Shown: piece by piece, positions 20,431-33,486 of the stretch | How the letters are laid out: the number at the start of each line of letters is the position of its first letter | Numbering within the stretch: position 1 is the first letter of the stretch | Assembly: GCA_013216195.1 (NCBI GenBank) | Contig: JABSOQ010000003.1 | Span: 1 to 38,418 of the forward strand | Source: Bdellovibrionales bacterium | Lineage (GTDB): Bacteria > Bdellovibrionota > Bdellovibrionia > Bdellovibrionales > UBA1609 | Length of the DNA: 38,418 nucleotides | Direction of reading: 5' to 3' | Made by a program: the position numbers and the translations under genes | Notes under the pieces: generated by a model | What the model was told of the DNA's origin: nothing | The model's input: only the letters and a program-made list of their open reading frames with translations | The model's database searches: none

Positions 20431-22080
20431 TTATCTGTAGGCAATCGCTTCAACATCAAAACCGTAACGGTTCACACTACCATCAGTAGTTAATCTCAAC
20501 GTTACTGTGTCACCTGTAATGATTGGTGAGAAACCACCATCGTGGCTACCACTCATTGTGCCAACAACTGCACCACTAGCATCGATGAACTCGACAGTGT
20601 CGTAGCTACGCTCAGTTTCGAAGCGGCTGAAAACCACAGCGATCTGAGAAGCACCTGGAACTGAAAGAGTCCACTCTTGCGAAGCATCGTTTGCGTACGG
20701 GTGATCAGTTGAAACTTGCTCAGCAACCTTCTCCCATCCCCAAGGATCATCTGGATCAACTGGAGCTGACTCATTGATCAAAGCGTAGTAAGCACTCACG
20801 ATACCACCAGAAGCGACTTTACCACGAACTGCACTTACAGGCTTAGTCGTATTGATAAGTCTGTCGCGAAGATCAGTCATTGTAATCTCTGGCTCGTTAG
20901 CTAGAACTAGAGCAGCTACACCAGAAACGTGAGGAGTTGCCATTGAAGTTCCAGACCAGCTTTTAAGACCATCAGGAGTAGTTGAAAGCACGTTCACACC
21001 TGGAGCAGCTACATCAACAGTAGTAGCACCGTAAGATGAGAAGCTTGCAAGACGACCGCGGCTGTCGATGGCAGCAACTGATACAATGTTATCAACATCA
21101 TATGTGGCTGGGTAAGTCGGGCGTGCGTCGTTGTTTTGACGGCTGTTACCAGCAGCTGCTGTAAACAAGATACCAGCTTCTTTTGCTCTGATGATTGAGT
21201 TTTTCAATTCTTCAGAGAAGCCACCGCCACCCCAAGAGTTTGACATCACATCAACACCCATAAGAGTTGCATAGTCGATAGACTTAATCGCACCTTCAAG
21301 AGTTCCGCCACCACGAGCAGTAAGAAACTTAATACCCATTAGTTTCACGTTCTGAGCAACACCAACGATTCCGATACCGTTGTTACCAGAAGCACCGATT
21401 GTTCCTGCACAGTGTGAACCGTGACCGTGATCATCCATTGGGTCAGAATCTTCGTTAGCGAAGTCCATACCATATATGTCATCAACGAATCCGTTACCGT
21501 CATCATCAACACCAGCTTCACCGTTAAGTTCGGCATCGTTTGTCCATACGTTTGGCACAAGATCGTCAATTGTGTAATCGACACCAGTATCGATAACTGC
21601 AATTACAACTTCGTCAGAACCTGTAGTGATCTCCCAAGCTTTAAGAGCATCTACGTCGATACCCGCAGAATTCAAACCGTCAGGTCTTGAATCAGTGTTA
21701 TGTAGACCCCAAAGAGCGTTGAACTCAGGATCGTTTGGAACAGTTGTTGGCTGTTCATCAGTGTCGATTGTGTAAATAAAGTTTGGCTCTGCGTTGGCGA
21801 CCATTGGGTTGCTTTTCAGTGTGCTAACTACGTAGTCTTCTCTTTCAAGAGGACTTCTCTTCACTACAACTAAGTTTTTGTCGAGACCGAAGCGCTCACC
21901 AACTTCTCCACCAAGAATTTGCGACAAAGGTGTCACATTTTGAGTGGCAATTGTTTCTTTAAGTCTAACGACGTATTCGCCTGGTACTGATTGTACGTTT
22001 GGTGCAGCTTGAGCAACACCAGCAAAGCCCAATACAGCTAAAAGTGCTCCAGCCGCTTGACCCCATCTTCCTTGAATCAT
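20431..22080 (-). CDS. Secreted subtilisin-like (S8) serine protease with CUB-like C-terminal domain
   Basis: Signal peptide; propeptide GEYVVRLKE..; VIAVIDTGVDYTIDDL (Asp), DDHGHGSHCAGTIGA (His), SWSGTSMATPHVSGVAALV (Ser); AGGGGGA SD. Confidence 0.95.
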   Translation of the reverse strand: MIQGRWGQAAGALLAVLGFAGVAQAAPNVQSVPGEYVVRLKETIATQNVTPLSQILGGEVGERFGLDKNLVVVKRSPLEREDYVVSTLKSNPMVANAEPNFIYTIDTDEQPTTVPNDPEFNALWGLHNTDSRPDGLNSAGIDVDALKAWEITTGSDEVVIAVIDTGVDYTIDDLVPNVWTNDAELNGEAGVDDDGNGFVDDIYGMDFANEDSDPMDDHGHGSHCAGTIGASGNNGIGIVGVAQNVKLMGIKFLTARGGGTLEGAIKSIDYATLMGVDVMSNSWGGGGFSEELKNSIIRAKEAGILFTAAAGNSRQNNDARPTYPATYDVDNIVSVAAIDSRGRLASFSSYGATTVDVAAPGVNVLSTTPDGLKSWSGTSMATPHVSGVAALVLANEPEITMTDLRDRLINTTKPVSAVRGKVASGGIVSAYYALINESAPVDPDDPWGWEKVAEQVSTDHPYANDASQEWTLSVPGASQIAVVFSRFETERSYDTVEFIDASGAVVGTMSGSHDGGFSPIITGDTVTLRLTTDGSVNRYGFDVEAIAYR

Positions 22081-29032: not shown

Positions 29033-29686
29033 GTGAAGGCTGCTTTTCGAAAGCACATTTTACCGTGGCTTGTCCTTTGGATATATCGCCTCTTCGTTTG
29101 GAGTTGGAACACCAAACTGGACGAGCCACCAGAACTAAAAGAAGCCCTTCAAAATGGCGAGCCTCTAATTTTCGCCTTTTGGCATGGTCACGAACTGGCT
29201 GTCGCCCAACTTACAAAACGCTATAGGCTTGCAACCATGACCTCTCATTCAAAAGATGGTGAGCTCATGACTTTTGTAATTCATAAGCTCGGAGGTACCA
29301 CCTCAAGGGGTTCTAGCTCTAGGGGTGGGGCTGGTGGGCTGAAAGGGCTCATTCGTTTGGTAAAAACTGGACGTCCGGCTAGTATCGCAGTTGATGGACC
29401 ACGAGGCCCAATATACGAGGTTAAGCCTGGGGTTTTTGAGCTCTCGCGCCTATGTAAAGCCAAGATCTTCGCCGTTGGTCTAGACGCACCAACTGCCTGG
29501 ATCTTTGAAAAGTCCTGGAATAAGGCCATTCTGCCTAAACCTTTTTCTACAATCTCTGTGTCTTACTCAATAGGGATGGGACCAGTTACGTCTGACATGG
29601 ACCCAAAGTCTGCAGAGCTTGCGAGTGAGCTTAAAGAGCACATCTCTGATGCTTGCCAGCAAGCCCGCAAACTCATTGATTCGTAG
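29033..29686 (+). CDS. Lysophospholipid acyltransferase-superfamily protein (DUF374-like)
   Basis: GTG start; LIFAFWHGHELAV, MTSHSKDGELMTFVIHKLGGTTSRGSSSRGGAGGLKGLIRLVKTGRPASIAVDGPRGPIYEVKPGVFELSR. Confidence 0.88.
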   Translation: MKAAFRKHILPWLVLWIYRLFVWSWNTKLDEPPELKEALQNGEPLIFAFWHGHELAVAQLTKRYRLATMTSHSKDGELMTFVIHKLGGTTSRGSSSRGGAGGLKGLIRLVKTGRPASIAVDGPRGPIYEVKPGVFELSRLCKAKIFAVGLDAPTAWIFEKSWNKAILPKPFSTISVSYSIGMGPVTSDMDPKSAELASELKEHISDACQQARKLIDS

Positions 29687-29739: not shown

Positions 29740-30570
29740 ATGAAAAAAACTCTGATTGAACTCATCATCCTGCTTGTCGTGTCGGCATTTTTAGCGCCAA
29801 GCTCTTACGCTCAAATTGTTGTGGCGACTGTTGGTGGCAAAAAGATCACTCTTAAAGAGTTCAAAAAGAAGTTTCGCGATGTGAAGCAAAACTCAATCAA
29901 CCCACCAAAACCTGAAGTTTTTTTGGAAGACCTGATTCGCTTTGAAATGGGTGTTCAAGAGGCTGAAAAAATGAGCCTTCGTAATGATCCAATTGTACAA
30001 GAACGGTTTAAGCAAGAGATGTACAAGGCCCTTCTCGAGAAAAAACTAGGTAAGCAAGTTGAAGGCATCAAAGTAAATGAAAAAGAAATGCGCCGTTGGT
30101 ACAAGAAAAACCCTGAGTTGCGTTTGAGTCACATTTTGATCGAGTTTTCTCCAACAGCAACCGCCTCTCAAATAAAAGAGGCTAAAAAAAGAGCCAATGA
30201 GATCTACGCTGAAGTTAAATAAAGTAAGAGACCTTTTGAAGAGTTGGTCAGGCTCTACTCAGATGATTCACTCAGTAAAAACACCGGTGGTGATATCAAC
30301 TACCAATCACGCCTAACAATCGTGCCACCAGTTTACGAAACAGCTCTGCGCATGAAGGTTGGTCAGGTTAAAGGTTTGGTTCGAACTCAGTATGGTTATC
30401 ACATTTTGAAGCTCACCGGTAAGCGAAGCTATGACCAGGCAAATAAACGTTCGATTAGAACTGGCGTTTTTGATTCTAAACGGAAAAGAATCTTTGATGG
30501 CTACTTCAAGAAACTTTCTGGAAACTACAAAGTTAAGCGCAACAGACAGGCTTTGAAAGGCGTTAAGTAA
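29740..30570 (+). pseudogene. PpiC/parvulin-type peptidyl-prolyl isomerase interrupted by an in-frame TAA (30220-30222)
   Basis: N-part (29740-30222) ends LRLSHILIEFSPTATASQIKEAKKRANEIYAEVK*; the same frame continues SKRPFEELVRLYSDDSLSKNTGGDINYQ...GQVKGLVRTQYGYHILKLTGKR. The two track ORFs (29719, 30244) are 525 nt apart, a multiple of 3. Confidence 0.8.
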
Positions 30571-30626
30571 AAGCTTAACCAGCTCTTTTCATCTCTCAGC
30601 TTGTCTGATACCAGTGGATAATCAAT

Positions 30627-31601
30627 ATGAAAAAGTTCACTCAGATTACCCTGATTTTAGGCGTCTTGTTTCTAGTTGGTTGTACCAAAGGGTGTTTGTT
30701 AAACCGCTCAGGCCAGTTATCAGAAAGAGTTGTCGTCAAAGTCAATGAAGTGGACCTCACGGCTGAAGAGTTTGCTAATGCTTTGGCCGATCAACTCAAA
30801 AACTACGATGCATTAACTGTTAAAGAAGAGGGCTTGATCATTCAAGCCAAGCAGCAAGTGGTTCGAGACTTTATCATTCGAGTTATCACAGAATCTTGGG
30901 CTCAAGAAAACGGCTTGCTCGTTCAAAAAGAAGAGCTGGAAGCAGAACTCGCCAACATTAAAAGCCAATACCCCGACGATCTCACCTTTAGACAAAAGCT
31001 AATTGAACAAAATATTTCTTATGAAACATGGCGCAGCCAAATAAAATTGCGTAAATTGCAACACAAAGTCGTGGAGCAACTCAAAAGCAAGATCAGCCAA
31101 CCGTCAGAATCTGAAATGAAAGAGTTCTTTAAAGAGCACAAAAAAGAGTACTCACATGACAAGCAAGTTTTACTCGAGCAAATCGTAGTGCGCACTGAAG
31201 ATGAAGCCGACAGAATTCGTCAAGGCCTAAGAAAAGGCAAAAAGTTCGGCGAACTTGCTAAACAGTTTTCGATTACACCTGAATCAGAGAATGGTGGTCG
31301 GCTAGGCTGGATAGAGCAGGGCATGTCTGACACTTTTGACAGCGCGTTTCAGCTACCAGTAAACCGATTAAGCGGCGTGTTAAAGAGCCCTTATGGCTAC
31401 CACATCCTCAAAGTTGTTAAAAAGCGCAAGGCATTCACTGAGTCATTTGAAGATGTGAAAGAACGTATATATAAACAATTGATACAAAATCGTGAGCAAG
31501 CTGCGTATTCAAAGTGGCTCGAAAAACAAATTCGAAAGGCAAAAGTATTAAAAGACGAATTCTTTATTGCCAGCATGAGAGTCGAAACTTCAGCAGAGTA
31601 A
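30627..31601 (+). CDS. PpiC/PrsA-type peptidyl-prolyl isomerase lipoprotein
   Basis: Lipobox LFLVGC; SurA-like N-domain; parvulin LLEQIVVRTEDEADRIRQGLRKGKKFGELAKQFSITPESENGGRLGWIEQGMSDTFDSAFQLPVNRLSGVLKSPYGYHILKV. Confidence 0.92.
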   Translation: MKKFTQITLILGVLFLVGCTKGCLLNRSGQLSERVVVKVNEVDLTAEEFANALADQLKNYDALTVKEEGLIIQAKQQVVRDFIIRVITESWAQENGLLVQKEELEAELANIKSQYPDDLTFRQKLIEQNISYETWRSQIKLRKLQHKVVEQLKSKISQPSESEMKEFFKEHKKEYSHDKQVLLEQIVVRTEDEADRIRQGLRKGKKFGELAKQFSITPESENGGRLGWIEQGMSDTFDSAFQLPVNRLSGVLKSPYGYHILKVVKKRKAFTESFEDVKERIYKQLIQNREQAAYSKWLEKQIRKAKVLKDEFFIASMRVETSAE

Positions 31602-32554
31602 TTCTAGCCTTAATTGCACTTATGGTGATCACTTCACCGTTCGCCAGAGCTGAACTAATTGAACGCATAGTTGCTATTGTAGACAATGCTATCGTGACGA
31701 AAACTGATCTTGAGGCCTACCGTGAGAAGCTCAAATCAGGTGGCCTTGTCGACGATGCTCTTCTCAAAATGAAAGACCCGAAGGCTCTTATGAGCGATGA
31801 CAACGCACTTGTGAGTCATCTGGTCGACGAGCGAGTTATCGACCAAGAGATTCAACGATTGGGCATGGCTGTCACTATCGAAAAGGTAGAACAAGAAATT
31901 CGCAGTGTTACCTCTAGAAACGGTATTACTAGAGCTCAGTTGAAAGAGGCCCTAACTGCTAGAGGTGTTAAGTTTTCTGATTACCAAGACTTCATTCGTA
32001 CATCGTTAGAAAGACAGGCCCTGATCGATCGTGAAGTTGCCTCTAGAATTAAGATCTCTGAAGAAGACATTTCAAATTTCTATCTTGCCCAAACTCAACA
32101 AACCAACGCTCAGGTTTTTGAATACCGACTTGCTCACATTTTGATTAGGCCTGTTGAGCGGGGAGGGCAAAGCCCAGATGAGAGAATCAAGTTGGTTCAA
32201 AGAAAAGTCTCAGAGGGTACAAGAAGCTTTTCAGAGCTAGCTTCTCAATTTTCAGAAGACCCTAATTTTTCACAAGGTGGCATTCTAGGTTCTTTTAAAG
32301 CAGGTGAAATGCTACCTGCCCTTGAAAATGGAATTCGCAGTTTAAATGTCGGTGATATTTCACAGCCTGTTAAAACACCTGCCGGTCTTCATATCATTAA
32401 AGTGATTAACAAAACCCTTGTTGAGGATCCAAATTTAAAAGCACAGAAAGTACAAATTCAAAATATTCTCTACGCCAGAGCTTTCAAAGACCAATTTAGA
32501 AAGTGGCTCGACCAAAAGAGAGAGAACTCATTTATTAGGATCAACGAGCAATAA
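31514..32554 (+). CDS. surA: SurA-type periplasmic chaperone / peptidyl-prolyl isomerase
   Basis: AELIERIVAIVDNAIVTKTDLEAYREKL, LAHILIRPVERGG...FSELASQFSEDPNFSQGGILGSFKAGEMLPALENGIRSLNVGDISQPVKTPAGLHIIKV; directly upstream of pdxA. True start uncertain. Confidence 0.87.
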   Translation: MARKTNSKGKSIKRRILYCQHESRNFSRVILALIALMVITSPFARAELIERIVAIVDNAIVTKTDLEAYREKLKSGGLVDDALLKMKDPKALMSDDNALVSHLVDERVIDQEIQRLGMAVTIEKVEQEIRSVTSRNGITRAQLKEALTARGVKFSDYQDFIRTSLERQALIDREVASRIKISEEDISNFYLAQTQQTNAQVFEYRLAHILIRPVERGGQSPDERIKLVQRKVSEGTRSFSELASQFSEDPNFSQGGILGSFKAGEMLPALENGIRSLNVGDISQPVKTPAGLHIIKVINKTLVEDPNLKAQKVQIQNILYARAFKDQFRKWLDQKRENSFIRINEQ

Positions 32555-33486
32555 TGCTGAATCATGTTGTTATCACTACTGGCTCCCCAGAAGGGGTTGG
32601 CTCAGAGATCGTCAAAAAAGCACTGCTAGAGATAAAGCCGAATTCAAAACTGAGATACACAGTGCTCTCTCACAATTCGGCTTTGCCAATTCAGCTTAAA
32701 GGACCTTGGCGCGTAAAAAAAACAGACAAGAGCGAGCTTGCAAGATGGAGAGCTTCTGACCGAGATGTTGTTCGCTTAATATCTTACTCAGGGTCACCCG
32801 CCAATATGGTCAAGGCAGCAACTCAACTCTGCATAGACGACAGCAATACAGCAGTTTCAAACGCTCCGATGCGAAAATTGAAATCAGGTGCTGGTCATAC
32901 CGAGATCATCAAAGACATGAGCAAATCGAAACATGTCACAATGGGTTTTATTGGTAAAAGGTTTAATGTCTGTTTAGCTACGACCCACATTCCGCTAGAA
33001 AAAGTACCAGGTCAGTTAACTAAATCTAGAGTTACTGTGGTGGCTAAAGCCACAGAGAAGTTACATCAACTTACGGGACCTTCAGCAGACACAATAGGGG
33101 TGCTGGGCTTAAACCCGCATGCCGGTGAAAGCGGGGCCATCTCTAAACTCGATGCCAAGCTTTTCTCGGTCTTGAAACAGTGTCGATTGAGCTCGCCAAT
33201 AAGCCCCATGTTGCCAGCCGACGGAGCTTTTATGAATGGGGCTCCACATCGAACCCTGCTTGCCTGGTATCATGATCAGGGCCTGATCCCATTTAAACTT
33301 ATCCATGGCTTATCTATGGGAATTCAAATCACCCTGGGGATCCCCTTTATTCGAACAAGTGTCGACCACGGAACAGCTGAAGATCTTCACGGCAAAGGAA
33401 TAGCCGACCATAAGTCTATGAAAATGGCTATTCAGTGGGCCGCCAAACTACAAGCCCAACATGGAAACAGCCTGTTAGATCTCTGA
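32554..33486 (+). CDS. pdxA: 4-hydroxythreonine-4-phosphate dehydrogenase
   Basis: GAGHTEIIKD, CLATTHIPLEKV, LGLNPHAGESG, LPADGAF, YHDQGLIPFKL, GIQITLGIPFIRTSVDHGTAEDLHGKGIAD. Confidence 0.92.
   Translation: MLNHVVITTGSPEGVGSEIVKKALLEIKPNSKLRYTVLSHNSALPIQLKGPWRVKKTDKSELARWRASDRDVVRLISYSGSPANMVKAATQLCIDDSNTAVSNAPMRKLKSGAGHTEIIKDMSKSKHVTMGFIGKRFNVCLATTHIPLEKVPGQLTKSRVTVVAKATEKLHQLTGPSADTIGVLGLNPHAGESGAISKLDAKLFSVLKQCRLSSPISPMLPADGAFMNGAPHRTLLAWYHDQGLIPFKLIHGLSMGIQITLGIPFIRTSVDHGTAEDLHGKGIADHKSMKMAIQWAAKLQAQHGNSLLDL

Follow-up and report, generated by a model that had tools for sequence, protein, structure and literature searches.

An in-frame TAA interrupts the first of three tandem parvulin genes in a Bdellovibrionales genome and is probably a recent nonsense mutation

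The window, that is, the whole stretch of 38,418 nucleotides analysed here, carries an operon with the gene order etfB-etfA-DUF374-ppi1-ppi2-surA-pdxA-pmm, where three parvulin-chaperone genes stand in tandem and the interrupted gene comes first among them. This order is kept in genomes G002, G053 and G006, and in G001 up to the end of a short contig. The relevant features are:

29033 to 29686, plus strand: upstream conserved neighbour (synteny; no NCBIfam match), which we take to be a DUF374/acyltransferase-like gene
29740 to 30570, plus strand: frame of the SurA/PEB4-like parvulin gene, with a single internal TAA
29740 to 30222, plus strand: 5' fragment: probable signal peptide, then SurA-like N-domain and, of the parvulin domain, the first strand and helix; the TAA follows
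30220 to 30222, plus strand: premature TAA at codon 161; the two same-genus relatives read AAA (Lys)
30223 to 30570, plus strand: 3' fragment, with the remaining parvulin domain, including the second active-site histidine (H221), and the C-terminal chaperone helix
30244 to 30246, plus strand: TTG, the nearest possible restart
30627 to 31601, plus strand: second parvulin gene, SurA/PrsA-like and intact (Pfam, NCBIfam, synteny)
31586 to 32554, plus strand: third parvulin gene, SurA-like (SurA_N and Rotamase, synteny); frame intact, start codon uncertain
32554 to 33486, plus strand: downstream conserved neighbour, pdxA-like (TIGR00557, 208.8 bits, below the curated cut-off; synteny)

For the third parvulin gene, position 31586 is where the frame was read from and is not a start call. 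Its junction with the upstream stop is TAATT here and TAATG in two relatives, while one relative apparently has TTG; the start candidates between 31514 and 31660 are GTG 31514, ATT 31601 and ATG 31622.

The frame of the interrupted gene is opened by the ATG at 29740, meets no stop other than codon 161 up to 30570, and closes at the TAA at 30571–30573. A single Rotamase match (PF00639) runs across the premature stop from 30130 to 30417 [85.4 bits against a cut-off of 21.7, one TAA inside], and the 3' fragment by itself still matches the Pfam Rotamase model [4e-14, 53.9 bits]. The 5' fragment matches SurA_N_2 at E=2e-5, which is below the cut-off, and its signal peptide was judged by eye. Orthologs of the gene align through the stop position. 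The chance of at least 115 open codons following a stop is about 0.003, and within the 108,651-base contig the stop at 30220 is the top-scoring one flanked on both sides by coding signal, so the interrupted frame is not a product of chance. The runner-up on the contig, a second split-gene candidate at 39656, proved to be two ordinary adjacent genes. The frame, the spanning Rotamase match and the ortholog alignment thus confirm the initial annotation of this locus as an otherwise intact parvulin gene split by one in-frame TAA.

In the product of the intact gene a probable signal peptide is followed by a SurA-like N-domain and a single parvulin domain, with a helix at the C-terminus. An AlphaFold model was examined for the ortholog in B. 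bacteriovorus kdesi (mean pLDDT 90.6, pTM 0.67); by E-value its closest structure is PEB4 (3rfw), followed by SurA and PrsA. The whole-chain match of the intact ortholog to 3rfw has an E-value of 3.6e-12 with a TM-score of only 0.33–0.35; the best matches generally reach only about 0.3–0.4 over the whole chain and about 0.8 over the parvulin domain alone, so that the domain arrangement is not settled. SurA of E. coli has two parvulin domains. The window family shares with it the SurA-like N-domain and a parvulin domain, but possesses only one of the latter and scores under the NCBIfam cut-off for SurA. In PEB4 (Cj0596, cell-binding factor 2) of Campylobacter jejuni, the N- and C-terminal parts form a chaperone domain around one parvulin domain (PMC5368265), a plan which the intact ortholog probably shares. 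Identity is about 25% and, given the low whole-chain TM-score, the arrangement may differ; PEB4, moreover, is intact.

On the kdesi model codon 161 falls at residue 157, at the end of the helix formed by residues 138–157, which is the first parvulin helix; what remains of the parvulin domain lies 3' of the stop, as does the C-terminal helix that belongs to the chaperone module. The 5' fragment had been described as ending with the first parvulin strand, and while the signal peptide, the SurA-like N-domain and that strand all stand, the model of the intact ortholog places the first helix there as well. The stop also separates the active-site histidines, H131 lying before it and H221 after it, whereas the orthologs have both on one polypeptide. 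Most likely the truncated product would be an exported protein of 160 residues deprived of most of its PPIase domain and of the C-terminal helix, and because of these losses it is probably non-functional.

How unusual the stop is may be judged from a survey of 141 genomes of the order Bdellovibrionales, the gene being counted as present at E≤1e-25. It is present in 131 of these, and as would be expected of a nonsense pseudogene the mid-gene stop is absent from the orthologs, occurring in 1 of the 131, namely the genome of the window. The initial annotation had named relatives with the same stop and independently conserved two-ORF starts as evidence against its reading; none of the other 130 genomes holding the gene has the stop. 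Codon 161 reads AAA in 12 and AAG in 9 of the 31 other genomes counted, both specifying lysine, and the presence of AAA in both sister genomes agrees with the proposal that a single substitution of AAA by TAA is responsible, that is, one A-to-T transversion. Several other genomes were flagged as having one stop inside the gene. In G053, G057, G037, G041 and G038 this was the natural gene end, those sequences that were fetched having no stop before query position 273; in G068, G081, G086, G124 and G126 the alignments end at 274–275, and the natural end was judged from the alignment end only. The collections searched held no conspecific genome, and no second intact copy was found elsewhere in the assembly, which is about 97.6% complete.

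The part of the gene following the stop has not decayed. In comparisons of the window with its two relatives in the same genus, dN is 0.22 before the stop and 0.21 after it (109 codons scored), and there are no deviations on either side at columns that at least 95% of the orthologs conserve. Lineage-specific changes after the stop show no significant excess (12:12 versus 10:6, P=0.53), and this portion has no additional lesions, constraint being equal on the two sides. Since dS is saturated between genomes of the same genus, dating by dS was abandoned; as a rough bound only, the neutral share of the terminal branch is at most about 5–9% at a terminal dS of 1 to 0.5. The relaxed constraint typical of a nonsense pseudogene is therefore not seen in these comparisons, though a very young lesion would be expected to show none. 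A downstream part that is undecayed and equally conserved, together with a stop that is unique, points to a very young lesion, a transient polymorphism or an error.

Loss of this gene is rare, 100 of the 103 good genomes of the order having kept it, but it does occur. In G039 the first parvulin gene alone is missing (L062) and the remaining operon is intact; in G046 the losses are the first and second parvulin genes (L063), again with the other operon genes in place. The completeness rating is 100% for both genomes. A laboratory counterpart is found in the host-independent, biofilm-forming B. bacteriovorus strain MHI179, in which Bd0019 (annotated as ppiD) carries c.91del, leaving 30 + 13 residues (PMC11323537). 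When c.91del was introduced in silico, a product of 43 residues resulted for the kdesi, G048 and G061 orthologs, as against 37 and 39 for the two paralogs in G048; in G053 and G056, which are more distant, the orthologs yielded 60 and 55. Based upon this agreement in length and upon operon position, Bd0019 is very likely the ortholog of the interrupted gene. The two cases share inactivation, but that in MHI179 is a laboratory frameshift after codon 30 alongside other mutations, whereas the lesion here is a nonsense codon, at 161, and the genome an assembled one; because of those other mutations no phenotype can be attributed to the Bd0019 frameshift. As an analogy, Campylobacter mutants in PEB4 and SurA-like chaperones are viable, with poor growth and outer-membrane defects (PMC5368265). 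The clean losses in G039 and G046 and the viable frameshift in MHI179 indicate directly that this gene, nearly universal in the order, is dispensable.

We consider it probable, therefore, that a nonsense mutation produced the TAA recently, in a SurA/PEB4-like chaperone gene which is dispensable, the base being real, translation ending there and the loss being tolerated. An A-to-T change at codon 161 would have struck the first of the three tandem periplasmic parvulin genes, and translation would presumably terminate at this codon to yield the exported fragment of 160 residues. Having lost the C-terminal chaperone helix and the greater part of the PPIase domain, the fragment would probably have no function, and the cell may tolerate this since the gene can be dispensed with and is followed in its operon by two parvulin paralogs, which might compensate. 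The case looks like ordinary gene loss rather than a novel mode of decoding. Should the mutation be real, this natural instance joins the clean deletion in relatives and the laboratory frameshift, all pointing to a dispensable chaperone in Bdellovibrio-like bacteria. Of the options listed in the initial annotation, this one has thus fared best and error is left standing, while readthrough and re-initiation to give two fragments have lost ground.

If the stop arose through an error in sequencing or assembly, or as a minority allele taken into the consensus of a mixed population, the gene of the organism itself would be intact. The assembly is fragmented (296 contigs), the stop occurs in one genome only, and a difference of one base with an undecayed downstream part is what an error might look like. 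On the other hand 110 matches to ABC and response-regulator domains in the genome contained no stops, nor did coding signal reveal any other split gene in the 108 kb of the contig, which argues that the assembly is not error-ridden; the affected gene, furthermore, is one that relatives can lose. We regard error as fairly unlikely, and as less likely than recent mutation as the source of the stop.

One might also suppose that loss of the chaperone was selected and not merely tolerated, and that it goes with a shift in way of life, for instance towards prey independence or growth in biofilms. This is hinted at by the Bd0019 frameshift in a host-independent, biofilm-forming strain, but we regard it as improbable.

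Functional readthrough or suppression of the stop, giving some full-length protein, draws on the conservation of the part beyond it and on the report of widespread in-frame stops in prokaryotes at dN/dS below 1 (Belinky et al. 2021, PMC7918605). Those cases resemble the present one in that a gene otherwise conserved is interrupted by one stop, but they are common to at least two genomes whereas ours is a singleton, and most are short-lived, which fits a young singleton stop. A frame conserved past such a stop does not show readthrough, since the conservation can predate it, and no relative has the stop. TAA is also the commonest terminator on the contig, ending 31 of the 63 long ORFs, a usage which rules out its reassignment. 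Programmed readthrough or recoding is marked by a conserved stop with a stimulatory element or a suppressor tRNA, and these are not in evidence: no stimulatory RNA structure was found, the 100 bases after the stop folding like shuffled sequence (z=-0.15), and the tRNA loci scanned, which do not make up the full set, include none with a TTA anticodon. Readthrough is accordingly very improbable.

That the gene now works as two pieces, the second arising by re-initiation at the in-frame TTG 21 bases past the stop codon, is hardly credible: this TTG has no well-spaced Shine-Dalgarno sequence, its product would be cytoplasmic for want of a signal peptide and would lack the first strand and the first active-site histidine, each piece is without part of the parvulin fold, and no relative among the 130 other genomes having the gene shows a two-ORF form.

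Elsewhere in the window, the ORF translations reveal two further items of note on the minus strand. Between 12107 and 15204 there is a cluster of genes with prepilin-like N-termini (GFSLTELL, GFSLSELL), which probably specify minor pilins, and the ORF at 20431–22080 appears to encode a subtilisin-like secreted serine protease.
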